The notes under the pieces: generated by a model | What the model saw: only the letters and a program-made list of their open reading frames with translations | What the model was told of the DNA's origin: nothing | Database searches by the model: none | Position numbers and translations under genes: made by a program | Shown here: positions 7,895 to 19,313 of the stretch, one piece after another | How positions within the stretch are numbered: the stretch's first letter is position 1 | Layout: each line of letters opens with the position of its first letter | Assembly: GCF_012927165.1 (NCBI RefSeq) | Contig: NZ_JABBGA010000012.1 | Coordinates: forward strand, 62,001-126,000 | Direction of reading: 5' to 3' | Source: Zoogloea dura | GTDB lineage: Bacteria; Pseudomonadota; Gammaproteobacteria; Burkholderiales; Rhodocyclaceae | DNA length: 64,000 nucleotides

Positions 7895-8153
7895 GACACA
7901 GTCTCCTTGGGTGTCAGCCACGTGGTGGGCTGCTCTTCTATTTTTTGCGTCGCGGGGGAAAGATACCCGAAATGGGCACATCAGAACATCGATCCATGCT
8001 TCCCTGCACGCACAAGCCTGGTGCATGCAGGCTGCCCGATGCACCGGATTCACTCCCGGGGCATCCCGTCCGGCATCGGGCTCACGCACATACGCGGTCG
8101 CCTGGATCCTCCAAACCATTGAAATGAATAGTCTAAAAAGCCACTGAAGGCAT
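7895..8153. promoter_or_regulatory. Divergent intergenic region with NtrC-like half-sites
   Basis: This is the upstream part of a 525-base gene-free region. It contains TGCAC (8005-8009), TGGTGCA (8019-8025) and TGCACCG (8040-8046). These match halves of the NtrC enhancer consensus TGCACCA/TGGTGCA, though the spacings are not those of the perfect dyad. They sit 110-150 bases upstream of the sigma-54 element, the usual distance for enhancer sites. The short open frames here have no ribosome binding sites and I do not accept them as genes. Confidence 0.4.
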
Positions 8154-8170
8154 CTGGCATGCCGCGTGCT
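8154..8170 (+). promoter_or_regulatory. Putative sigma-54 promoter of the guanidine operon
   Basis: TGGCAT (8155-8160), five bases, then GTGC (8166-8169) followed by T. The GG and GC dinucleotides are separated by exactly 10 bases, as sigma-54 requires, and the site matches the consensus YTGGCACG-N4-TTGCW at most positions. Transcription would start near 8181, just before the riboswitch. NtrC/sigma-54 control would make the operon respond to nitrogen limitation, which suits a gene set that ends in ammonia release. Confidence 0.6.
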
Positions 8171-8211
8171 AAATCGTCTGTCGAGAGGGGCGAAAAGCGT
8201 CACATCGCATT

Positions 8212-8380
8212 CGCTTCTTCGAAGGGTGGCTAGGGTTCCGATCCTGTCTAGGATGTGCATGCATGTCCGCAGGATGTCTGGTCCGAGAGCTGCCGGCCAT
8301 GAAGCGCCGGGTTCAGGATTGCCGGCGTGACGTGGCTCCACGGAGGGATAAAAGCCCGGGAGGATCGCTTTGACGAAGCG
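8212..8380 (+). ncRNA. Guanidine-I (ykkC) riboswitch
   Basis: The conserved blocks of the ykkC/guanidine-I aptamer are all present and in order: GGCTAGGGTTCCG (8228-8240), TCTGGTCCGAGAGC (8277-8290), and ACGGAGGGATAAAAGCCC (about 8340-8357) followed by GGGAGG. The class binds free guanidinium and turns on downstream genes. CGCTTC (8212-8217) can pair with GAAGCG (8375-8380). The latter can instead form a small hairpin with CGCTT at 8366-8370, which suggests a switch. No U-run follows, so the mechanism is not a simple intrinsic terminator. It immediately precedes the guanidine importer and degradation genes. Confidence 0.93.
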
Positions 8381-8419
8381 CCCTCTCGCCCATTTATCCG
8401 ATCCGACAGGGAGCCCGTC

Positions 8420-9478
8420 ATGCACCACCTCGATCACCGCCTTGCCCGCCCGTCCCTCCTCCGCGGCACGCAGCCTCCGTCTTCCCCCCTCGCCTCCATG
8501 CTCCAGCGCCTGCGCACCGGTCTTGCCGTGCTGGGCCTCGGCACTGCCCTGCTCGCCACTTCAGCGCCGGCCCTGGCCGAAGTGAAGGTCGGCGTCTCCG
8601 ACTGGCCGGGCTGGGTGGCCTGGTACGTGGCCGAGCAGAAGGGCTTCTTCAAGAAGCACAAGGCCGACGTGAAACTGGTGTGGTTCGCCAACTACACGGA
8701 TTCGATCTCCGCCCTGTCCTCCGGCCAGCTCGACGCCAATTCCCAGACCTGGTCCGACACCATGGGCCCGCTGGCCAAGGGCCTGCCGCTCAAGGCGATC
8801 CTGGTGAACGACAACTCCGCCGGCAACGACGCGCTGATGGTCAGCGGCAAGATAAAGGGCTTTGCCGAGCTCAAGGGCAAGAGCATCGCCCTTGAGGAGT
8901 TCAGCATCTCCCACTTCGTGCTGGCCACCGCCCTGGCCAGGAACGGCATGAGTCAGAAGGACGTGAAGGTGGTGAACCTGTCCGCTGGCGACGCCGCCGC
9001 GGCCTTCCTGTCGGGCCGGGTGGATGCCGCTGTGGTGTGGAACCCCTGGGTGGCCCAGATCGAGAAGAGCGGCAAGGGCAAGGCCTTGTTCACCTCGAAG
9101 GACATGCCGGGCCTCATTCCCGACCTTCTGGTGGCCCAGGACAAGGCCATCAAGGCCAAGCGCAAGGATCTGGTCGGCATGATCCGGGCCTGGTTCGATA
9201 CCGAGAAGTTCATCCGCGACAACCCGGACGAAGCGGCGAAGATCATGGCCAAGGTGGTGGGCATGAAGCCGGACGAGTACAAGGTCTTCCTGCCCGGCAC
9301 CCGCTTCTTCGACGCCGCCGCCAACCAGGCCGCACTGACCCCGGCCGACCCGAAATCCCTGCAGGCGGTGGCTCCGACGATCTCCAGCTTCCTGCTCGAC
9401 AAGAAGCTGATCGACGGCAAGCCTGACGCAGCCAAGGGCATCGACGCATCCCTGCTCGCCGAAGCCCTCGGCAAGTGA
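8420..9478 (+). CDS. ABC transporter substrate-binding protein (guanidine/urea-carboxylase-associated, NrtA/TauA type)
   Basis: About 352 residues. After a basic N-terminal stretch there is a signal sequence (LRTGLAVLGLGTALLATSA, then PALA-E), so the protein is periplasmic. The mature part, with VGVSDWPGWVAWYVAEQKG and repeated D/A-rich binding-lobe motifs, belongs to the NMT1/TauA-like family that binds small organic cations or anions. In operons with the carboxylase and DUF1989 genes this component is the presumed guanidine importer receptor. Start ATG 8420 has AGGGAG 7 bases upstream. ATG 8498, directly before the signal sequence, is an alternative. The frame extends further upstream, but that part lies in the riboswitch. 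The permease gene follows after 7 bases. Confidence 0.88.
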   Translation: MHHLDHRLARPSLLRGTQPPSSPLASMLQRLRTGLAVLGLGTALLATSAPALAEVKVGVSDWPGWVAWYVAEQKGFFKKHKADVKLVWFANYTDSISALSSGQLDANSQTWSDTMGPLAKGLPLKAILVNDNSAGNDALMVSGKIKGFAELKGKSIALEEFSISHFVLATALARNGMSQKDVKVVNLSAGDAAAAFLSGRVDAAVVWNPWVAQIEKSGKGKALFTSKDMPGLIPDLLVAQDKAIKAKRKDLVGMIRAWFDTEKFIRDNPDEAAKIMAKVVGMKPDEYKVFLPGTRFFDAAANQAALTPADPKSLQAVAPTISSFLLDKKLIDGKPDAAKGIDASLLAEALGK

Positions 9479-9485
9479 GGCCGTG

Positions 9486-10304
9486 ATGAGTGCAAGCAAG
9501 CGCTCGGGCGGCGCGAGCCCCCTGTGGCAGATCCGCACGGCCATCGACCCTCGCCACTACTGGGTGCTGGCCCTGTGCGGGCTGGTCGCCCCGCTGCTCG
9601 GATGGAGTATCGCCAGCAGCCTGGACGGGGTGGACAAGGTCTTCCTGCCCGGCCCGGCCGACGTGCTGGCCCGCATGTGGACTTGGGCCAGCGAGGACGG
9701 CCTGCCTGCTGACGTGGCCATCAGCACCTGGCGGGTGGTGGCCGGCTGGGCGCTGTCGGCGGCGATCGCCCTGCCTCTCGGGCTGTTCATCGGCAGCTAC
9801 CGCTCGGTGCAGGCCCTGCTGGAGCCGCTCACCGACTTCATCCGCTACATGCCGGCGGTGGCCTTCATTCCACTGGTGATGCTGTGGGTCGGCATCGAGG
9901 AAGGCTCCAAGATCGCCATCATCTTCATCGGCACCTTCTTCCAGATGGTCCTGATGGTGGCGGAGGACGTACGCCGGGTGCCCCTGGCCCAGATCGAGGC
10001 GGCCCAGACCATGGGTGCCTCCCGTGGCGAGATCCTCGAGAAGGTCATCGTGCCGTCCGCCAAGCCGGCCCTGCTCGACACCCTGCGGGTGACCATGGGC
10101 TGGGCCTGGACCTACCTGGTGGTGGCCGAGCTGGTGGCGGCCAACTCGGGGCTGGGCTACGCCGTGCTCAAGGCCCAGCGCTTCCTGCAGACCGACAAGA
10201 TCTTCGCCGGCATCCTGCTGATCGGCCTGATCGGGCTGGTCATCGACCAGGGTTTCCGCCTCGCCCACCGCAAGGCCTTCCCCTACCTGGCCGGGAGACA
10301 CTGA
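9486..10304 (+). CDS. ABC transporter permease (presumed guanidine importer)
   Basis: A 272-residue inner-membrane protein of the SsuC/TauC/NrtB family. It has about six hydrophobic segments and the EAA-loop sequence AAQTMGASRGEILEKVIVPS, which contacts the ATPase. It forms the channel for the substrate delivered by the upstream binding protein. I take ATG 9486, with GAGG 5 bases before it; GTG 9483 is also possible. It begins 7 bases after the binding-protein stop, and its own TGA overlaps the ATG of the ATPase gene (TGATG at 10302-10306), a sign of translational coupling. Confidence 0.88.
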   Translation: MSASKRSGGASPLWQIRTAIDPRHYWVLALCGLVAPLLGWSIASSLDGVDKVFLPGPADVLARMWTWASEDGLPADVAISTWRVVAGWALSAAIALPLGLFIGSYRSVQALLEPLTDFIRYMPAVAFIPLVMLWVGIEEGSKIAIIFIGTFFQMVLMVAEDVRRVPLAQIEAAQTMGASRGEILEKVIVPSAKPALLDTLRVTMGWAWTYLVVAELVAANSGLGYAVLKAQRFLQTDKIFAGILLIGLIGLVIDQGFRLAHRKAFPYLAGRH

Positions 10305-11149
10305 TGACCGCCAGCATTGAAATCCGGGACGCCTTCAAGACCTTCGGCCACGGCCCGCGGGCCATCCAGGCCCTGGAGAAGGCCAGCCTGGACATCCGCC
10401 CCAATGAGTTCGTCACCTTCGTGGGTGCCTCGGGCTGCGGCAAGTCCACCCTGCTGCGCATGATCGGCGGGCTGGAGAGCCTCACCAGCGGCAGCATCAC
10501 CGTGAATGGACAGCCCATCGCCGGCCCCGGGGTGGACCGGGCCATGGTGTTCCAGCACTACAGCCTCTACCCCTGGCTCACGGTGGCCGACAACATCCGC
10601 TTCTGCCGCCAGCTCAAGGCCCACACCCGCGACCGGACCTCCGCCGACGTGGAAAAGGCCTCCGGCCGGGCCGACGCGCTGATCCGCCTGATGGGCCTCA
10701 GCCACGTCGCCCACGCCTACCCGAACCAGCTGTCGGGCGGCATGCAGCAGCGGGTGGCGATCGCCCGGGCGCTGATGAGCCGGCCGCCGATCCTGCTGAT
10801 GGACGAGCCCTTCGGGGCCCTCGACGCGCAGACCCGCGAGGTCATGCACGACCTGATCCGCCACGTGCATCGCATCGAGGGCAGCACCATCGTCTTCGTC
10901 ACCCACGACGTGGAAGAGGCGATCTACCTGGGCCAGCGCATCGTGCTGATGGCCCCCCGCCCCGGCCGCATCGACACCCTCTACGACGTGCCCCTCCCCG
11001 CCGAACGGCACCAGGACATGAAGCTCGCCCCCGAGTTTCTCGGCCTCAAGCGCGAGATCCTGGACCGCATTCGCGAAACATCCGGCATGAAGACCGACCT
11101 GGAACAACTCGCGCGCTTGTCCGCCGAAGCTGCCGAACTGGAGGCCTGA
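10304..11149 (+). CDS. ABC transporter ATP-binding protein (presumed guanidine importer)
   Basis: A 281-residue NrtD/SsuB-type ATPase with complete motifs: Walker A GASGCGKST, Q-loop MVFQHYS, signature LSGGMQQR, Walker B ILLMDEP, D-loop GALDA and switch His in VTHDVEEA. It powers the importer formed with the two preceding gene products at the cytoplasmic membrane face. The true start is ATG 10304, overlapping the permease stop; the open frame upstream to 9884 is a shadow inside the permease gene. A C-terminal tail of about 40 residues is helical and acidic. Confidence 0.9.
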   Translation: MTASIEIRDAFKTFGHGPRAIQALEKASLDIRPNEFVTFVGASGCGKSTLLRMIGGLESLTSGSITVNGQPIAGPGVDRAMVFQHYSLYPWLTVADNIRFCRQLKAHTRDRTSADVEKASGRADALIRLMGLSHVAHAYPNQLSGGMQQRVAIARALMSRPPILLMDEPFGALDAQTREVMHDLIRHVHRIEGSTIVFVTHDVEEAIYLGQRIVLMAPRPGRIDTLYDVPLPAERHQDMKLAPEFLGLKREILDRIRETSGMKTDLEQLARLSAEAAELEA

Positions 11150-11154
11150 ACCCC

Positions 11155-11943
11155 ATGAACACCCTGCTCACCCCCACCGACGCGGTGGATATCGACACCC
11201 GCTGGCAGCAACTCGCCCCCGACCTGCCCGCCGACAAGGTGCTGTTCTCCGACGTCATCCCCGGCGGCTGTCACTGGTCTTGGATGCTGCCCCGCGGCGT
11301 CACCCTGCGCCTGGTCGCCCAGGGCGCCGGCGCCAACCTGTCGCTGGTGCTCTACAACGCCCGTCAGAAGCTCGAGCGCTACAACATGCCCGACTCCCTC
11401 AAGGCCCAGCACACCGCCCACTACAGCCGCGGCCACGTGTTGATGAGCGACATGGGCTGCGCCATGGCCTCGATCACCGCAGACAGCCTGGGCTGGCACG
11501 ACCCCCTCGGCATGCTGCTCGACACCCCCCGCCTGCACGACAAGTACGGCGAGCACAGCTACCAGCAGTACCGCAACGGCATGTACCGGGCCGGCCGCGA
11601 CGGCCTGCTGATCGAGATCGGCAAGTACGGCCTGACCCGCCGCGACCTGGTCGCGCCGGTCAATTTCTTCAGCAAGGTCAGCGTGGACGAGGAAGGCCGC
11701 TTCCGCTTCCACGAAGGCCACGCCAGGGCTGGCGACCACCTCGACCTGCGCCTCGACATGGACGTGATCGTCGCCGTATCCACCGCCCCCCACCCCCTCG
11801 ACCCGCGCCCCGACTACGCGCCGGCCGCGGTGGGCATCACCGCCTGGCGCTCAGGCCCGGCAGCGGAGGATGACTACTGCCGAGCCTTCCGCCCGGAGTG
11901 CGCCCGCGCCCTGCACAACACCGACATGCACTACCTGGCCTGA
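11155..11943 (+). CDS. DUF1989 protein, carboxyguanidine deiminase subunit (urea carboxylase-associated protein)
   Basis: A 262-residue DUF1989 protein, the longer of two paralogues encoded back to back. Conserved stretches include GWHDPLGMLLDT, QQYRNGMYRAGRDGLL and APVNFFSKVSVDEEGRF. Proteins of this family beside guanidine carboxylase are now known to form the two-subunit carboxyguanidine deiminase (CgdAB), which converts carboxyguanidine to allophanate with release of ammonia. They were earlier called urea carboxylase-associated proteins. GGAGG lies 10 bases before the ATG. It starts 5 bases after the ATPase gene. Which of the two genes is cgdA and which is cgdB I cannot say with certainty. 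Confidence 0.85.
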   Translation: MNTLLTPTDAVDIDTRWQQLAPDLPADKVLFSDVIPGGCHWSWMLPRGVTLRLVAQGAGANLSLVLYNARQKLERYNMPDSLKAQHTAHYSRGHVLMSDMGCAMASITADSLGWHDPLGMLLDTPRLHDKYGEHSYQQYRNGMYRAGRDGLLIEIGKYGLTRRDLVAPVNFFSKVSVDEEGRFRFHEGHARAGDHLDLRLDMDVIVAVSTAPHPLDPRPDYAPAAVGITAWRSGPAAEDDYCRAFRPECARALHNTDMHYLA

Positions 11944-11953
11944 GGAGACGCCC

Positions 11954-12607
11954 ATGACCGCCACCGCCATCCGCCTCCAGGAAAGCCCCCTCGACCCTGC
12001 CGACGCCGTGCACAGCGCCATCCTGCCCGCCGGTGAGCCCTGGCTGCACGAAGTGAGGCAGGGCCAGACCCTGCGCATCGTGGACCTGGAAGGCAACCAG
12101 GCCGCCGACATCATCTTCTATAACCGCCACGACACCGACGAGCATTACAGCGTCACCGACACCATCCTGCACCAGGGCGGCATCTACCTCACCACCGGCT
12201 CGGTGCTGATGAGCAGCGAAGGCCGGCCGATGCTCACCATCGTGGCCGACACCTGCGGCCGCCACGACACCCTCGGCGGGGCCTGCGCCGCCGAGAGCAA
12301 TACGGTGCGCTACGCCCTGCACAAGAAGTTCATGCACAGCTGCCGGGACAACTACCTGCTCGCCATCCAGCACTCCGACTCGGGCCTGAGCAAGGCCGAC
12401 CTGGTGCCCAACGTCAATTTCTTCATGAACGTGCCGGTCACCGCCGACGGCCAGCTCAAGTTCGACGACGGCGTCTCCGGCCCCGGCAAGTACGTCGAGC
12501 TGCGCGCCGAGATGGACCTGTGGGTGCTCGTCTCCAACTGCCCCCAGCTCAACAACCCCTGCAACGCCTACAACCCGACGCCGGTCCAGTTCCTCATCTG
12601 GAGCTGA
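11954..12607 (+). CDS. DUF1989 protein, second carboxyguanidine deiminase subunit
   Basis: A 217-residue paralogue of the preceding protein. Shared family features are the opening [21 protein letters not shown], the [20 protein letters not shown] segment with Cys and His residues, and [18 protein letters not shown]. It would act with the upstream DUF1989 protein as carboxyguanidine deiminase in the cytoplasm. Start ATG 11954 lies 10 bases after the previous stop, with GAGGAG upstream. The longer open frame beginning at 11870 overlaps the upstream gene and was rejected. It is followed by 164 bases that hold the guanidine-II candidate and then the carboxylase. Confidence 0.85.
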
Positions 12608-12701
12608 CGGCCCCCAAGGGGGCACAGGACAACCTGGGGCGGCCCGGCGTTTTCCTGCAGCTCACCAGCAGCACCAAAACCAACCGGCACGCGCCGGCCC
12701 C

Positions 12702-12748
12702 CCCGGGACGACCCGGGCGGACAGGAAAGATAAGGCGGGACGACCCGC
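12702..12748 (+). ncRNA. Candidate guanidine-II (mini-ykkC) riboswitch inside the operon
   Basis: Two adjacent GC-rich hairpins each carry an ACGA tetraloop: CCCGGG-ACGA-CCCGGG at 12702-12717 and GCGGG-ACGA-CCCGC at 12735-12748. A purine-rich linker of about 17 bases joins them. Paired stem-loops with ACGR loops joined by a short linker are the defining architecture of guanidine-II. The element ends 23 bases before the ATG of the guanidine carboxylase and well downstream of the operon leader riboswitch. Loop sequence, stems and gene context all agree. A covariance-model score would settle it. Confidence 0.75.
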
Positions 12749-12771
12749 TGCCCTTTTCGCGAGACATCACC

Positions 12772-15700
12772 ATGTTCAGCAAAGTCCTCATCGCCAACCG
12801 GGGCGCCATCGCCTGCCGGGTGATCCGCACACTCAAGAAGCTCGGCATCGCCTCGGTGGCGGTCTATTCCGAGGCCGACGCCAACTCGCTGCATGTCAGC
12901 CTGGCCGATGAAGCCGTGTGCATCGGCCAGGCCCCCGCCGCCGAGAGCTACCTGAAGGCCGAGACCATCCTCGAGGCGGCCCGCGCCACCGGCGCCCAGG
13001 GCATCCACCCGGGCTACGGCTTCCTCTCCGAGAACCCGGACTTCTCCGCTGCCTGCGAGGCCGCCGGCATCGCCTTCATCGGCCCCACCCGGGCCCAGAT
13101 GCTCGCCTTCGGCCTCAAGCACACCGCCCGCGAGCTGGCCGAGAAGGCCGGCGTGCCCCTGCTGCCCGGCAGCGGCCTGCTCGACGACGTGGCCCATGCC
13201 CGCCGCGAGGCCGCCCGCATCGGCTACCCAGTGATGCTCAAGAGCACCGCCGGCGGCGGCGGCATCGGCATGCGCCTGATCGCCTCCGACACCGAGCTGG
13301 ACGAGGCCTACGCCTCGGTGGACCGCCTGGCCCGCGCCAACTTCAAGGAAGCCGGCATCTACCTGGAAAAGTACGTCACCGCCGCCCGCCACATCGAGGT
13401 GCAGGTCTTCGGCGACGGCCAGGGCAAGGTGCTGGCCCTGGGCGAACGGGATTGCTCGGTGCAGCGCCGCAACCAGAAGGTCATAGAGGAAACCCCTGCG
13501 CCGGGCCTGTCCGCCGAACAACGGACCAGCCTCGCCGCCACCGCCGTGCGCCTGATGGAATCCATCGCCTACCGCTCCGCCGGCACGGTGGAGTTCGTGA
13601 TGGACGCCGACAGCGGCGCCTTCTACTTCCTGGAGGTGAACACCCGCCTGCAGGTGGAGCACGGCGTCACCGAAGAAGTCACCGGCGTGGACCTGGTGGA
13701 ATGGATGGTGCTGCTCGCCTCCGGCGATCTGGTCCTGCCCGCCGCCGCCCCGGCGCCCCGCGGCGCCTCGATCCAGGTGCGCCTGTACGCCGAGGACCCG
13801 GCCCGCAACTTCCAGCCCTCCTCCGGCCTGCTCACCGAGGTCAGCTTTCCGCCCGGCGTGCGTGTCGAAACCGCCGTCACCACCGGCTCGGAAGTGCCGC
13901 CCTACTACGACCCGATGGTGGCCAAGCTGATCGTCCATGCGGACACCCGCGAAGCCGCCACCGACGCCCTGATCGCCGCCCTGGACGCCAGCCGGGTGTA
14001 CGGCATCGAGACCAACCGGGCCTACCTGCGCCAGATCCTCGACGGCGAGGTGTTCCGCGGCGGACGCCAGACCACCCGCTACCTCAACAGCTTCAACTAC
14101 CGCCCCAGCACCTTCGAGGTGCTGGAAGCCGGCGTGCAGACCTCGGTGCAGGACTGGCCCGGCCGAACCGGCTACTGGGACGTCGGCGTGCCGCCCTCCG
14201 GCCCGATGGACGACCTGTCCCTGCGGGCCGCCAACCGCCTGGTCGGCAACCCGGAAGGCGCCGCCGGCCTCGAATGCACCATGACCGGGCCGACCCTGCG
14301 TTTCAACTGCGATGCGGTGATCGCCCTCACCGGCGCCCCCACCGCTGCGACCCTGGACGGCGAGCCCCTGGCCTTCTGGCAGGCCCATGCCATCAAGGCC
14401 GGTGCGGTGCTGAAGATCGGCGCGGTGAAGGATGCCGGCTGCCGCAGCTACCTGGCGGTGGCCGGCGGCATCGACGTACCCGACTACCTGGGCAGCAAGT
14501 CCACCTTCACCCTCGGCCAGTTCGGCGGCCATGCCGGCCGCTGCCTGCGCCTGGGTGACGTGCTGGCGATCCATCCCGGCGCCACACTGCCACCGCCCCT
14601 CGCCCTGCAGCCGCCGGCCTACGCCCACCACTGGGAAGTGGCGGTGCTCTACGGCCCCCACGGCGCACCGGACTTCTTCACCGATCCGGACATCGCCAGC
14701 TTTTTCGCCACCGACTGGGAGATCCACTACAACTCCAGCCGCACCGGCGTGCGCCTGATCGGGCCCAAGCCCGAGTGGGCGCGGACTGACGGCGGCGAGG
14801 CTGGCCTGCACCCCTCCAACATCCACGACAACGCCTACGCCATCGGCGCCATCGACTTCACCGGCGACATGCCGGTCATCCTCGGCCCCGACGGCCCCAG
14901 CCTGGGCGGCTTCGTCTGCCCGGCGGTGGTCATCCAGGCCGACCTGTGGAAGCTCGGCCAGCTGCGCCCGGGCGACAGCCTGCGCTTCGTGCCGGTGAGC
15001 GCCGCCACTGCGGCCCGGCGCCTGGCCGAGACCGACCTCGCCCTGACCACCCCGGTCATCGCCGAGCCCGGCACCGTCACCACCCCGGTGCTGGCCGAGC
15101 TGCCCGCCGCCGGCGAGCGCCCCCGGGTGGTCTACCGCCAGGCCGGCGACGCTTACCTGCTGGTCGAGTACGGCCCCCTGGTCCTCGACCTGGAGCTGCG
15201 CTTCCGTGTGCATGCCCTGATGGACTGGCTCAAGGCCCACCCCCAGGCAGGCATCATCGACCTGACCCCGGGCATCCGCTCCCTGCAGCTGCACTTCGAC
15301 GCCCGCCGCACCGACCGCGCCGCGCTGCTGGCCGTGCTGATCGCCGCCGAGGACGCCCTGCCCGCCATCGACGACATGGAGGTGCCGAGCCGCACCGTGT
15401 ACCTGCCCCTCTCGTGGGACGACCCGGCGACAAAGCTGGCCATCGACAAGTACATGCAGTCGGTGCGCAAGGACGCCCCCTGGTGCCCCTCCAACATCGA
15501 GTTCATCCGCCGCATCAACGGCCTGGATTCCATCGACGAGGTCTATCGCACCGTCTTCGAGGCCAGCTACCTGGTCCTCGGCCTGGGTGACGTCTACCTC
15601 GGCGCTCCCGTCGCCACCCCCATGGACCCGCGCCACCGCCTGGTCACCACCAAGTACAACCCGGCCCGCACCTGGACGCCGGAGAACGCGGTGGGCATCG

Positions 15701-16356
15701 GCGGTGCCTACATGTGCGTGTACGGTATGGAAGGCCCCGGCGGCTACCAGTTCGTCGGCCGCACGGTACAGATGTGGAACCGCTGGAACCATGGCAGCCG
15801 CGGCACCGAGCAGTTCGACAAGCCCTGGCTGCTGCGCTTCTTCGACCAGGTGCGCTTTGTGCCGGTGAGCGAGGACGAGTTGCTGCAACTGCGCAAGGAC
15901 TTCGCCGCCGGCCGCGCCCGCCTGCGCATCGAGGACGGCGTCTTCCGCCTCGCCGACTACCGCCGCTACCTGGCCGACAACGCCACGCCGATCGCCGCCT
16001 TCAAGGCCCGCCAGCAGACCGCCTTCGAAGCCGAGCGCGAGCGCTGGAAGGCCGCCGGCCAGGCCGAGTACATCAGCGAGGCCGACATCGCCGCGGCCGC
16101 CGCCGACACCGAGCTGGACCTGCCGGAAGGCGCCCGCCTGGTGGCCAGCCACATTCCCGGCAACATCTGGAAGGTGCTGGTCGAGCCCGGCCAGCCGGTG
16201 AAGGCCGGCGACCCGCTGGTGATCGTCGAATCCATGAAGATGGAATTCACCGTTACCGCCCCCGAAGACGGCGAGATCCTGCAACTCCTCTGCCGCGAAG
16301 CCACCCCCGTCGCCGCCGGCCAGGACCTGCTGATCCTGCACTGCGCCACCCACTGA
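12772..16356 (+). CDS. Biotin-dependent guanidine/urea carboxylase
   Basis: About 1194 residues. Order of domains: biotin carboxylase ([22 protein letters not shown]-grasp with AGGGGIGMR, roughly 1-450), a KipA/KipI-like carboxyltransferase region ([18 protein letters not shown] near 470 to about 1000), a linker, and a biotinyl domain with ESMKMEF, where Lys1156 would carry biotin. The family was annotated as urea carboxylase, but members linked to DUF1989 genes and guanidine riboswitches prefer guanidine and make carboxyguanidine. I infer guanidine from context; the specificity residue in the carboxyltransferase site was not placed here. The ATG has only a weak upstream GAGA. Allophanate hydrolase follows after 14 bases as a separate protein, unlike fused fungal urea amidolyase. 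Confidence 0.9.
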
Positions 16357-16370
16357 ACGGAGAGACGACC

Positions 16371-18167
16371 ATGCTGCCCACCCGCCTAGACCTCGCCACC
16401 CTGGCCGCGGCCTACCGCCAGGGCCTCAAGCCCAGCACCCTGTTCGCCCATCTGCATGCCCTGGCCCGCGCGGATGAACACCTGGCCTGGATCAGCCTGC
16501 TGCCGGAGGGCGAGCTGCTGGCCCGTGCCCGCGCCCTGGACGAGCAGGATCCGGCCAGCCTGCCGCTCTACGGTGTGCCCTTCGCCATCAAGGACAACAT
16601 CGACCTGGCCGGCCTGCCCACCACCGCCGGCTGCCCGGACTTCGCCTACGCGCCGGCAGCCGATGCCAAGGTGGTGGCCCGGCTGATCGCCGCTGGTGCC
16701 ATTCCCCTCGGCAAGACCAACCTGGACCAGTTCGCCACCGGCCTCAACGGCACCCGCAGCCCCTACGGCGCCTGCCGCAATGCCATCAACCCGGCCTACA
16801 TCTCCGGCGGCTCCAGCTCGGGCTCGGCCGTGGTGGTGGCCGCCGGGCAGGTGAGCTTCTCCCTTGGCACCGACACCGCCGGCTCGGGCCGTGTGCCGGC
16901 CGCCTTCAACAACCTGGTCGGCCTCAAGCCGACCTGCGGCCTGCTCTCCTCCAGCGGCCTGGTGCCTGCCTGCCGGAGCATCGACACTATCTCGATCTTC
17001 ACCCTCAGCGCCGCCGATGCGGCCGCGGTGTTCGCCGTCGCCCGCGGCTTTGACGAGGCCGATGCCTACAGCCGCCCGGCGGAAACCCACGGCCGGCGCT
17101 TCCCAGCTGGCGAGCCCTTCCGCTTCGGCGTACCACGCCCGGAGCAGCTGGCCTTCTTCGGCGACCCGCACAACCCGGCGCTGTTCGAGGCCGCGGTGGC
17201 CCGCCTGGCCGCCCTCGGCGGCACCCCGGTGGTACTGGACTTCAGCCCCTTCCTGGACACCGCCCGCCTGCTCTACGGCGGCCCGTGGGTGGCCGAGCGC
17301 TATCACGCCATCAAGGACTTCATCGAGCGTCAGCCGGACTCCGTCTTCCCGGTCACCCGCGAGATCACCCTCGGCGGCGCCCGGGCCAGCGCCGTGGAGG
17401 CCTTTGATGCCCAGTACCGCCTCAAGGCCCTGAAGCGCCGCTGCGATGCCGTGTGGCAGGACGTGGATCTGATCCTCACCCCCACCGCCGGTCACCACCC
17501 CACCATTGCCGCGGTGGAGGCCGACCCGATCCGCATCAACACGGAGCTGGGCTACTACACCAACTTCATGAACCTGCTGGATTACTCGGCGGTGGCCGTA
17601 CCGGCCGCCATCCGCGCGGACGGCCTGCCCTTCGGCATCACCCTGTTCGCCCCGGCCCACCAGGACATTCCGCTGCTCGAGCTGTCCGCCCGCTGGCAGG
17701 CCGACACCCGGCTCTCCCCGGGCGCCACCGGCCAGGTCCTGCCTGATGTTCCGTTCATTCCCGAGCCCGCCGCCAGCGGCATGGTCCGGGTGGCGGTGTG
17801 CGGCGCCCATCTGTCCGGTCTGCCCCTCAACTGGCAGCTCACCCAGCGGGGCGCCCGGCTGATCGGGGCCGTACGCTCGGCACCGGAATACCGCTTCTAC
17901 GCCCTGGCCGGGGGCCCGCCCCTGCGGCCCGGCATGGTCCGCGTCGCGGAAGGCGGCGGCAGTGTGGACATGGAAGTCTGGGAATTGCCAGCCCGCCACT
18001 TCGGCAGCTTCGTGGCCGGCATTCCGGCGCCGCTGGGCATCGGCAAGGTCAAGCTGGAAGACGGCAGCCAGGTGTGTGGCTTCATCTGCGAGAGCGGCGG
18101 GCTGGCCGGTGCCGAGGACATCACCCCCCTGGGCAGTTGGCGTACCTGGCTGGCCAGACACGCCTGA
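16371..18167 (+). CDS. atzF: Allophanate hydrolase
   Basis: A 598-residue amidase-signature enzyme that splits allophanate into ammonia and CO2. The catalytic Ser-cisSer-Lys triad is visible: Lys74 in GVPFAIKDNID, the Ser cluster in SGGSSSGSA (148-150), and nucleophile Ser172 in GTDTAGSGR. Residues from about 465 form the extra C-terminal domain of allophanate hydrolases (VAVCGAHLSGLPLNWQL to GSWRTWLARHA), so it is full length. CGGAGAGACGACC lies before the ATG. It is the last gene of the guanidine operon and gives the ammonia that justifies nitrogen control. Confidence 0.93.
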   Translation: MLPTRLDLATLAAAYRQGLKPSTLFAHLHALARADEHLAWISLLPEGELLARARALDEQDPASLPLYGVPFAIKDNIDLAGLPTTAGCPDFAYAPAADAKVVARLIAAGAIPLGKTNLDQFATGLNGTRSPYGACRNAINPAYISGGSSSGSAVVVAAGQVSFSLGTDTAGSGRVPAAFNNLVGLKPTCGLLSSSGLVPACRSIDTISIFTLSAADAAAVFAVARGFDEADAYSRPAETHGRRFPAGEPFRFGVPRPEQLAFFGDPHNPALFEAAVARLAALGGTPVVLDFSPFLDTARLLYGGPWVAERYHAIKDFIERQPDSVFPVTREITLGGARASAVEAFDAQYRLKALKRRCDAVWQDVDLILTPTAGHHPTIAAVEADPIRINTELGYYTNFMNLLDYSAVAVPAAIRADGLPFGITLFAPAHQDIPLLELSARWQADTRLSPGATGQVLPDVPFIPEPAASGMVRVAVCGAHLSGLPLNWQLTQRGARLIGAVRSAPEYRFYALAGGPPLRPGMVRVAEGGGSVDMEVWELPARHFGSFVAGIPAPLGIGKVKLEDGSQVCGFICESGGLAGAEDITPLGSWRTWLARHA

Positions 18168-18308: not shown

Positions 18309-19313
18309 ATGTCCTTCAAGCTCAAGACCGTCATTCTCATCACCGCCTGTGCCTTCACCCCGGTAGCTGCCACCCTGGCGGCAGGCAACGGCGAACCGAT
18401 ACAACCCATCCCCGCCGTCCGGGTCAGCAACCCCGCAGCAGTGGAACTGGGCAAGATGCTGTTCTTCGATCCCCGCCTGTCGAAGTCCGGCTTCATCTCC
18501 TGCAATTCCTGCCACAACCTGTCGATGGGCGGCAGCGACAACCTGAAGTCATCCATCGGCCACGGCTGGCAGAAGGGCCCGATCAACGCCCCCACCGTGC
18601 TCAATGCGCGCTTCAACCTGGCCCAGTTCTGGGACGGCCGCGCCGCCGACCTCAAAGCCCAGGCCGGTGGCCCCATCGCCAACCCGGGCGAGATGGCCTA
18701 CAGCCATGAACTGGCGGTCAATACCGTGAAGACCATCCCGGGTTACCGCAGCGCCTTCCGCAAGGCCTTCGGCAGCGACGAGGTGAACATCGACCGCCTG
18801 ACCCAGGCCATCGCCAGCTTCGAGGAAACCCTGGTAACGCCCGACTCCCGTTTCGACCGCTGGCTGAAGGGTGACAAGAAGGCCCTGAGCAGCGAGGAGC
18901 TGGCCGGCTACATGCTGTTCAAGGACAGCGGCTGCGTGGCCTGCCACAACGGTCCGGCGGTGGGCGGCAACTCCTACCAGAGGATGGGCGTGGTGGAGGC
19001 CTACAAGGCCAGCAGCCCCGCCGAAGGCCGCGTCGCCGTCACCGGCAAGGACGCGGACCGCTTCAACTTCAAGGTGCCCACCCTGCGCAACGTGGAGCTG
19101 ACCTACCCCTACTTCCACGACGGCGCCGCCAACACCCTGACGGAGGCCGTGGACACCATGGGCCGGGTGCAGCTTGGCCGCAAGTTCAGCGCCGACGAGA
19201 ACGCCCGCATCGTGGCCTTCCTGAAGACCCTCACCGGCAAGCAACCCAGCTTCGCGATGCCCACCCTGCCGCCCTCGGCAGACGCCACGCCGCGTCCGCA
19301 GCCTTTCAACTGA
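18309..19313 (+). CDS. Di-haem cytochrome c peroxidase (CcpA/MauG family)
   Basis: A 334-residue protein with a signal peptide (TVILITACAFTPVAATLAAG), so it is periplasmic. Two c-type haem sites are present: CNSCH (Cys65, Cys68, His69) and CVACH (Cys209, Cys212, His213). The segment RAADLKAQAGGPIANPGEMA and the ending TEAVDTMGRVQLG are standard for bacterial di-haem peroxidases, which reduce hydrogen peroxide with electrons from cytochrome c. AGGAGC lies 4 bases before the ATG. It stands alone on the plus strand and is not obviously linked to the guanidine operon. MauG-type function is less likely without methylamine genes nearby. Confidence 0.9.
   Translation: MSFKLKTVILITACAFTPVAATLAAGNGEPIQPIPAVRVSNPAAVELGKMLFFDPRLSKSGFISCNSCHNLSMGGSDNLKSSIGHGWQKGPINAPTVLNARFNLAQFWDGRAADLKAQAGGPIANPGEMAYSHELAVNTVKTIPGYRSAFRKAFGSDEVNIDRLTQAIASFEETLVTPDSRFDRWLKGDKKALSSEELAGYMLFKDSGCVACHNGPAVGGNSYQRMGVVEAYKASSPAEGRVAVTGKDADRFNFKVPTLRNVELTYPYFHDGAANTLTEAVDTMGRVQLGRKFSADENARIVAFLKTLTGKQPSFAMPTLPPSADATPRPQPFN

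Follow-up and report, generated by a model that had tools for sequence, protein, structure and literature searches.

A Guanidine-II riboswitch before the carboxylase gene of a guanidine-assimilation operon headed by a Guanidine-I riboswitch in Zoogloea dura

Guanidine-assimilation operons that carry riboswitches of two different guanidine classes have been described in several bacteria. In Vreelandella boliviensis, a Guanidine-I (Gd-I) riboswitch stands before the operon and a Guanidine-II (Gd-II) riboswitch between cgdB and gca; according to the text of that report, both RNAs were in-line probed, the Gd-II changed in a guanidine-dependent way, the KD for guanidine was 44 µM for Gd-I and 93 µM for Gd-II, and joint control by the two switches was named as a subject for further studies (PMC12508155). 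In Raoultella terrigena, Erwinia rhapontici and Klebsiella michiganensis, the importer and deiminase genes are described with Gd-I, and the downstream carboxylase and allophanate hydrolase genes with Gd-II (PMC12186494); the same review has Gd-I usually acting on transcription. The hallmark of Gd-II is a pair of G+C-rich hairpins with ACGR tetraloops, which guanidinium binding is reported to bring into a kissing interaction (PMC5486947), and the linker between the hairpins ranges from 7 to 40 nt (PMC7544219). The Gd-II riboswitch of Pseudomonas aeruginosa is described as responding to guanidine with raised ribosome initiation, and as being broken into the ON state when a putative P0 helix is mutated (PMC9561414). 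An alternative proposal has the linker masking the ribosome site, and in the same source the E. coli aptamer with ACGA in both loops is the tightest binder among four loop combinations, at 59 µM (PMC9300104). In its text, a 2022 review of tandem riboswitches lists no guanidine class as occurring in tandem (PMC9481103), a negative that is taken here to refer to arrays preceding a single gene.

The window, which is the whole 64-kb stretch of Zoogloea dura DNA that was analysed, contains a guanidine-assimilation operon with all of its parts on the + strand. At its head is a Gd-I (ykkC) aptamer at 8219-8364 (RF00442, 81.5 bits against a gathering threshold of 63, E 5.9e-13), the only match of its family in the genome at E <=0.001. 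It is followed by three ABC importer genes, encoding a substrate-binding protein of the NMT1/SsuA family (8420-9478; TIGR01728 above cut-off, PF09084), a permease (9483-10304; PF00528) and an ATPase (10304-11149; PF00005), and by the two carboxyguanidine deiminase subunit genes of the DUF1989 type, cgdA (UAAP1, 11155-11943; TIGR03425, 334.8 bits against a cut-off of 206, and PF09347) and cgdB (UAAP2, 11954-12607; TIGR03424, 348.1 bits, cut-off 285). The guanidine carboxylase gene gca, whose annotated family is urea carboxylase, lies at 12772-16356 (TIGR02712, 1880 bits, cut-off 1304), and 14 nt beyond it an atzF-type allophanate hydrolase gene at 16371-18167 (TIGR02713, 831 bits, cut-off 511) ends the operon. 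Adjacent genes overlap or stand no more than 14 nt apart except for a gap of 164 nt between cgdB and gca, which is the site of the Gd-II element. The closest named carboxylase, among the best 80 of at least 587 loci, is 94% identical and comes from a Zoogloea assembly. In an alignment with the urea amidolyase chain 5i8i, Asp695 of the gca product falls opposite Asn1330, which is presumed here to be the residue position that decides between the two substrates. At the deciding position, guanidine carboxylases are described as having Asp and urea carboxylases Asn (PMC12186494). Because the Z. dura enzyme has Asp695 and is encoded together with cgdA and cgdB, guanidine is its likely substrate as judged from sequence. 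After the operon, at 18309-19313, there is a gene resembling MauG-type di-haem peroxidases, with matches below the curated cut-offs.

A preliminary description had drawn attention to two GC-stem hairpins with ACGA loops, joined by about 17 bases directly before the carboxylase gene, and had read them as a second guanidine riboswitch, of class II. The hairpins are P1 (CCCGGG-ACGA-CCCGGG, 12702-12717, loop 12708-12711) and P2 (GCGGG-ACGA-CCCGC, 12735-12748, loop 12740-12743), with stems made of G and C only and a linker of exactly 17 nt (12718-12734), which falls within the published range; both hairpins rest on the RF01068 alignment and on covariation. The end of P2 is 23 nt from the gca ATG at 12772, and this leader (12749-12771), the presumed expression platform, holds only a weak Shine-Dalgarno-like GAGA at 12761-12764, with a best anti-Shine-Dalgarno duplex of -3.0 kcal/mol. 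The covariance check that the description had called for bears out its class assignment, as the Rfam cmscan of the 64-kb window places RF01068 at 12700-12748 with 42.6 bits against a cut-off of 32 (E 4e-5). Across the window exactly two Rfam matches reach their gathering thresholds, the Gd-I and the Gd-II, and a whole-genome search, in which scoring covered 150 of the 1713 candidates from a first look, yielded no Gd-II match at E <=0.001 besides the element itself (E 8.6e-7). The distance of some 4.5 kb that had been given between the two riboswitches is right from start to start; from the end of Gd-I to the start of Gd-II it is 4,336 nt. When 200-nt leaders from 76 related loci were shuffled by mononucleotide, two-hairpin elements with ACGN loops arose by chance in 3 of 3800 shuffles. 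Judged by sequence, what lies at 12700-12748 is a true Gd-II (mini-ykkC) riboswitch within a guanidine-assimilation operon and a predicted sensor of guanidinium.

The aptamer itself shows no differences from mini-ykkC RF01068, having two G+C-rich hairpins of the ACGR type, a linker of ordinary length and a position close to a guanidine gene's ribosome site. The operon resembles that of V. boliviensis in its head Gd-I, three ABC importer genes, cgdA and cgdB, Gd-II before gca, and allophanate hydrolase gene, a likeness that rests on the text description of that operon, its exact gene order being given in a figure. Unlike the V. boliviensis operon as described, it has no mgdH or mgdL separating gca from atzF, and whereas the V. 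boliviensis RNAs have been probed biochemically those of Z. dura are known from sequence. The same two-class layout is also that of Raoultella, Erwinia and Klebsiella, by description, and these are enterobacteria. Like tandem riboswitches, the pair in Z. dura consists of two switches for the same ligand in one operon; unlike them, the two are 4.3 kb apart and each stands before different genes. Since the layout has been published (PMC12508155; PMC12186494), the locus is not of a new kind, and the novelty implied by the preliminary description falls away: the locus confirms and extends known cases.

In the preferred reading, which is given a probability of roughly 0.87, the element is a genuine Gd-II riboswitch in which both ACGA loops would bind guanidinium and then kiss each other, and the kissing would open the ribosome site on the carboxylase mRNA, the head Gd-I having gated the whole message first. 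The carboxylase and the allophanate hydrolase would thereby be set apart from the importer and the deiminase. Guanidine binding, kissing loops, the ON direction and the translational level are all carried over from published relatives, by analogy with which the internal Gd-II is most likely a translational ON switch; a working copy in Z. dura, a single mRNA running through both switches and separate setting of the two gene groups are further inferences. The sequence analysis itself establishes what the element is and where it lies, together with its conservation, covariation and gene context.

Folding energy models, which do not represent kissing loops, found no structure that masks the gca ribosome site. 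For the window, the fold predicted in the absence of ligand already includes P1 and P2, and the start region is paired whether or not the two hairpins are forced. Predicted accessibility of the Shine-Dalgarno region, free and with P1 and P2 forced, was 0.19 and 0.19 for the window and on average 0.43 and 0.42 for 35 sequences, so that simple unmasking by the forced hairpins shows no average change. The P0 masking helix proposed for P. aeruginosa was not found here either, and pairing of the 5′ flank with the Shine-Dalgarno region exceeded shuffled complementarity at p <0.05 in none of 43 sequences. A clamp between linker and leader fared little better as a general platform, with 1 of 43 at the same level. 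Such a clamp could form in the window between GGAAAG (12724-12729) and CUUUUC (12753-12758), and likewise in L003, a close relative. Folding used 35 of 39 sequences and the complementarity tests 43 of 47, with L037, L047 and L048 left out for their long leaders and L055 for a rejected stem. Because the folding tools do not include kissing loops, the negative masking tests do not disprove masking.

The two-class layout, which the preliminary description had suggested looking for in related genomes, recurs there. Among 249 genomes of the family set searched with the Gd-I and Gd-II models under stricter filters, which make the counts lower bounds, at least 12 have Gd-I and at least 49 have Gd-II; in 9 of the 12 Gd-I genomes a Gd-II lies 4.2-5.1 kb downstream on the same strand. 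In the class set of 369 genomes, counted by RNA positions, there are 29 with Gd-I and 27 with Gd-II, and 11 of the 29 Gd-I genomes are tandem, spread over 10 differently labelled families. Over both sets, the same-strand distance from Gd-I to the downstream Gd-II is 3.3-5.1 kb. Matches that miss the Rfam cut-off but have E <=1e-3, among them that of G522, are included in the tandem and locus counts. Tandem genomes are a minority of those with Gd-II (9 of 49 in the family set, 11 of 27 in the class set), and the nine genomes of the window's genus, its own included, divide into three tandem, three with Gd-II and no Gd-I, and three with neither. Gene context was compared in the eight other tandem genomes of the family set: each of them has its Gd-II in the interval from cgdB to gca and carries cgdA and the importer genes on the upstream side, and the hydrolase was matched in five of the eight stretches; G006 has Gd-I and the genes without Gd-II, and there cgdB and gca overlap or adjoin. 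Among 80 named carboxylase loci, Rfam finds both classes in 23 (E <=1e-3), to which a structure-based look adds 3. Further elements were seen at some of these loci: L007 (6193-6237) and L009 (6117-6163) each have another Gd-II, upstream of the operon and on the strand opposite to it, and L009 has an additional + strand Gd-I near 1780-1898.

The presence of the element follows the spacing of the genes that flank it. The carboxylase loci compared, the best 80 of at least 587, are weighted towards close relatives; the cgdB-gca gap was measured in 76, since L016, L050, L053 and L059 lack enough upstream sequence. Of the 54 loci whose gap is 60 nt or longer, 52 have a two-hairpin element with ACGN loops; of the 22 whose gap is 36 nt or less, none has one (Fisher p 4e-17, uncorrected for relatedness, with the class limits set after the data had shown two groups). 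The two long-gap exceptions, L038 and L057, have imperfect hairpin pairs that were rejected by the element test. Gd-I upstream occurs together with the element in 33 of the 76 loci, Gd-I only in 22, the element only in 19 and neither in 2; the Gd-I calls of L058 and L066 were confirmed by Rfam on the loci, and among the 21 loci counted as lacking Gd-I the contig is too short upstream in some (L061, L040, L014 and L015). The pattern implies that the carboxylase gene is either placed for coupling to cgdB or given a Gd-II-type element of its own. A tentative account, judged rather doubtful, goes beyond this and has Gd-II replacing translational coupling and the head Gd-I also acting on translation, so that on one mRNA each of two sensors would gate its own cistrons. 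Loci with gaps of at most 36 nt and no Gd-II would then be coupled to cgdB, those with gaps of 60 nt or more would make a fresh start under a Gd-II-type element, the importer's Shine-Dalgarno would be paired by the Gd-I aptamer arm GGCUCC, and the two sensors would differ in ligand range.

The head of the operon bears on this account in both directions. No terminator-like site was recognised in 7950-8450 or in the leaders of two relatives. The predicted fold of 8327-8420 pairs the importer Shine-Dalgarno GGAGCC with the Gd-I arm GGCUCC, and pairing of this arm with the Shine-Dalgarno recurs in 7 of 7 leaders, all from close relatives, one of them with GGAGUC. This modelled pairing suggests that the head Gd-I may act on translation at least in part; it is a lead and not proof, because the seven leaders are close relatives. 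In L006, a possible GGGAGG/CCUCUC stem is followed by the sequence GCCCTTTTTG, an arrangement that falls outside the terminator scanner's spacing rule, so that there may still be a terminator at this point, which counts against a translational head switch.

In contrast to the single message of the preferred reading, carboxylase and allophanate hydrolase might be made from a separate transcript, with a promoter of their own in the 164-nt gap and the Gd-II as an ordinary leader riboswitch. The gap is the operon's only long one, and a scan of 12400-12900 gave three terminator-like sites, counting both strands, where shuffles gave 0.5; one of the three, at 12634-12647, is on the + strand. This + strand stretch, however, belongs to a small repeat of the genome that L003 and L125 lack in their gaps, and no sigma-70-like site was found in 12400-12900, a weak test as the shuffles also gave none. 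Moreover, in 25 of the 54 long-gap loci the gap is merely 63-76 nt and is almost filled by the Gd-II element. A separate transcript is therefore regarded as unlikely. As candidates for signals in the gap itself, there is no promoter-like site, and the one terminator-like stem on the + strand is weak and lies within the repeat. The repeat, G+C-rich and at 12606-12653 between cgdB and Gd-II, has five further partial matches in the genome at 82-88% identity, and it is found also in L006 and L124.

A rival to the preferred reading on the side of the ligand would make a related compound, for example methylguanidine, the main natural signal of the Gd-II. The V. boliviensis Gd-II is reported to bind methylguanidine at 83 µM and guanidine at 93 µM, and its Gd-I not to bind methylguanidine in the tested range (PMC12508155). 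In the operon as described there, however, mgdH and mgdL, for demethylation, stand between gca and the hydrolase gene, where Z. dura has 14 nt, and this alternative is accordingly thought quite improbable.

Covariation in the hairpins was measured on 47 aligned Gd-II elements preceding gca, which form 43 distinct alignment rows. Paired cells make up 94.3% in the 43 distinct sequences against 74.7% in shuffles, and cells with both sides changed number 111 against 34.9; none of 500 shuffles was as high in either measure, and none attained the observed value for pair types. Changes on both sides were seen at 10 of the 13 base pairs, a count that 10 of 500 shuffles reach. The covariation score of 0.517 was attained by none of 500 shuffles (0.167), a control that does not preserve the relatedness among rows, and it compares with 0.065-0.150 in the slid control, which does. 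By stem, pairing is 99.1% in inner P1 and 99.5% in P2, and 77% of cells in the three outer P1 pairs. The ACG core of the loops is invariant in the 47 sequences while the stems change in a compensatory way, and the ACGA loops, whose loss in close relatives would have spoken against the preliminary description, are retained in both hairpins of L003, L006, L124 and L125. Of the 52 two-hairpin elements at carboxylase loci, 40 have ACGR in each loop, and the Rfam element of L042 has ACGA in both. The absence of a recognisable expression platform might suggest a relic or a chance pair of hairpins without regulatory function, but the invariant loop core, the compensatory stem changes and an element presence that follows the gene gap make this very improbable.

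The other 12 of the 52 Gd-II-like elements, which lie no more than about 60 nt before the carboxylase, have ACGC or ACGU in one hairpin and never in both (L010, L011, L014, L015, L017-L021, L029, L058 and L064). Rfam places one of them above its cut-off (L011) and two below (L014 and L064), and leaves nine unmatched; they are possibly weaker or altered sensors. A literature search found no description of these loop variants, the consensus figure of PMC12335538 lying outside its scope. Five loci, of Methylotenera and others like it (L035, L036, L040, L041 and L043) have a P1 stem with an internal loop, keep ACGR and are unmatched by Rfam.

It is plausible, as the preliminary description proposed, that two sensors let the importer and deiminase be set separately from the carboxylase and hydrolase. 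It is unusual for an operon to have two different RNA sensors of a single metabolite, each standing before different genes, and the recurrence of this layout, together with the link between gene gap and Gd-II, makes it a good model for why a second gate persists. Candidate reasons for such a gate are the cost of a biotin carboxylase, a sharper threshold and a wider ligand range.
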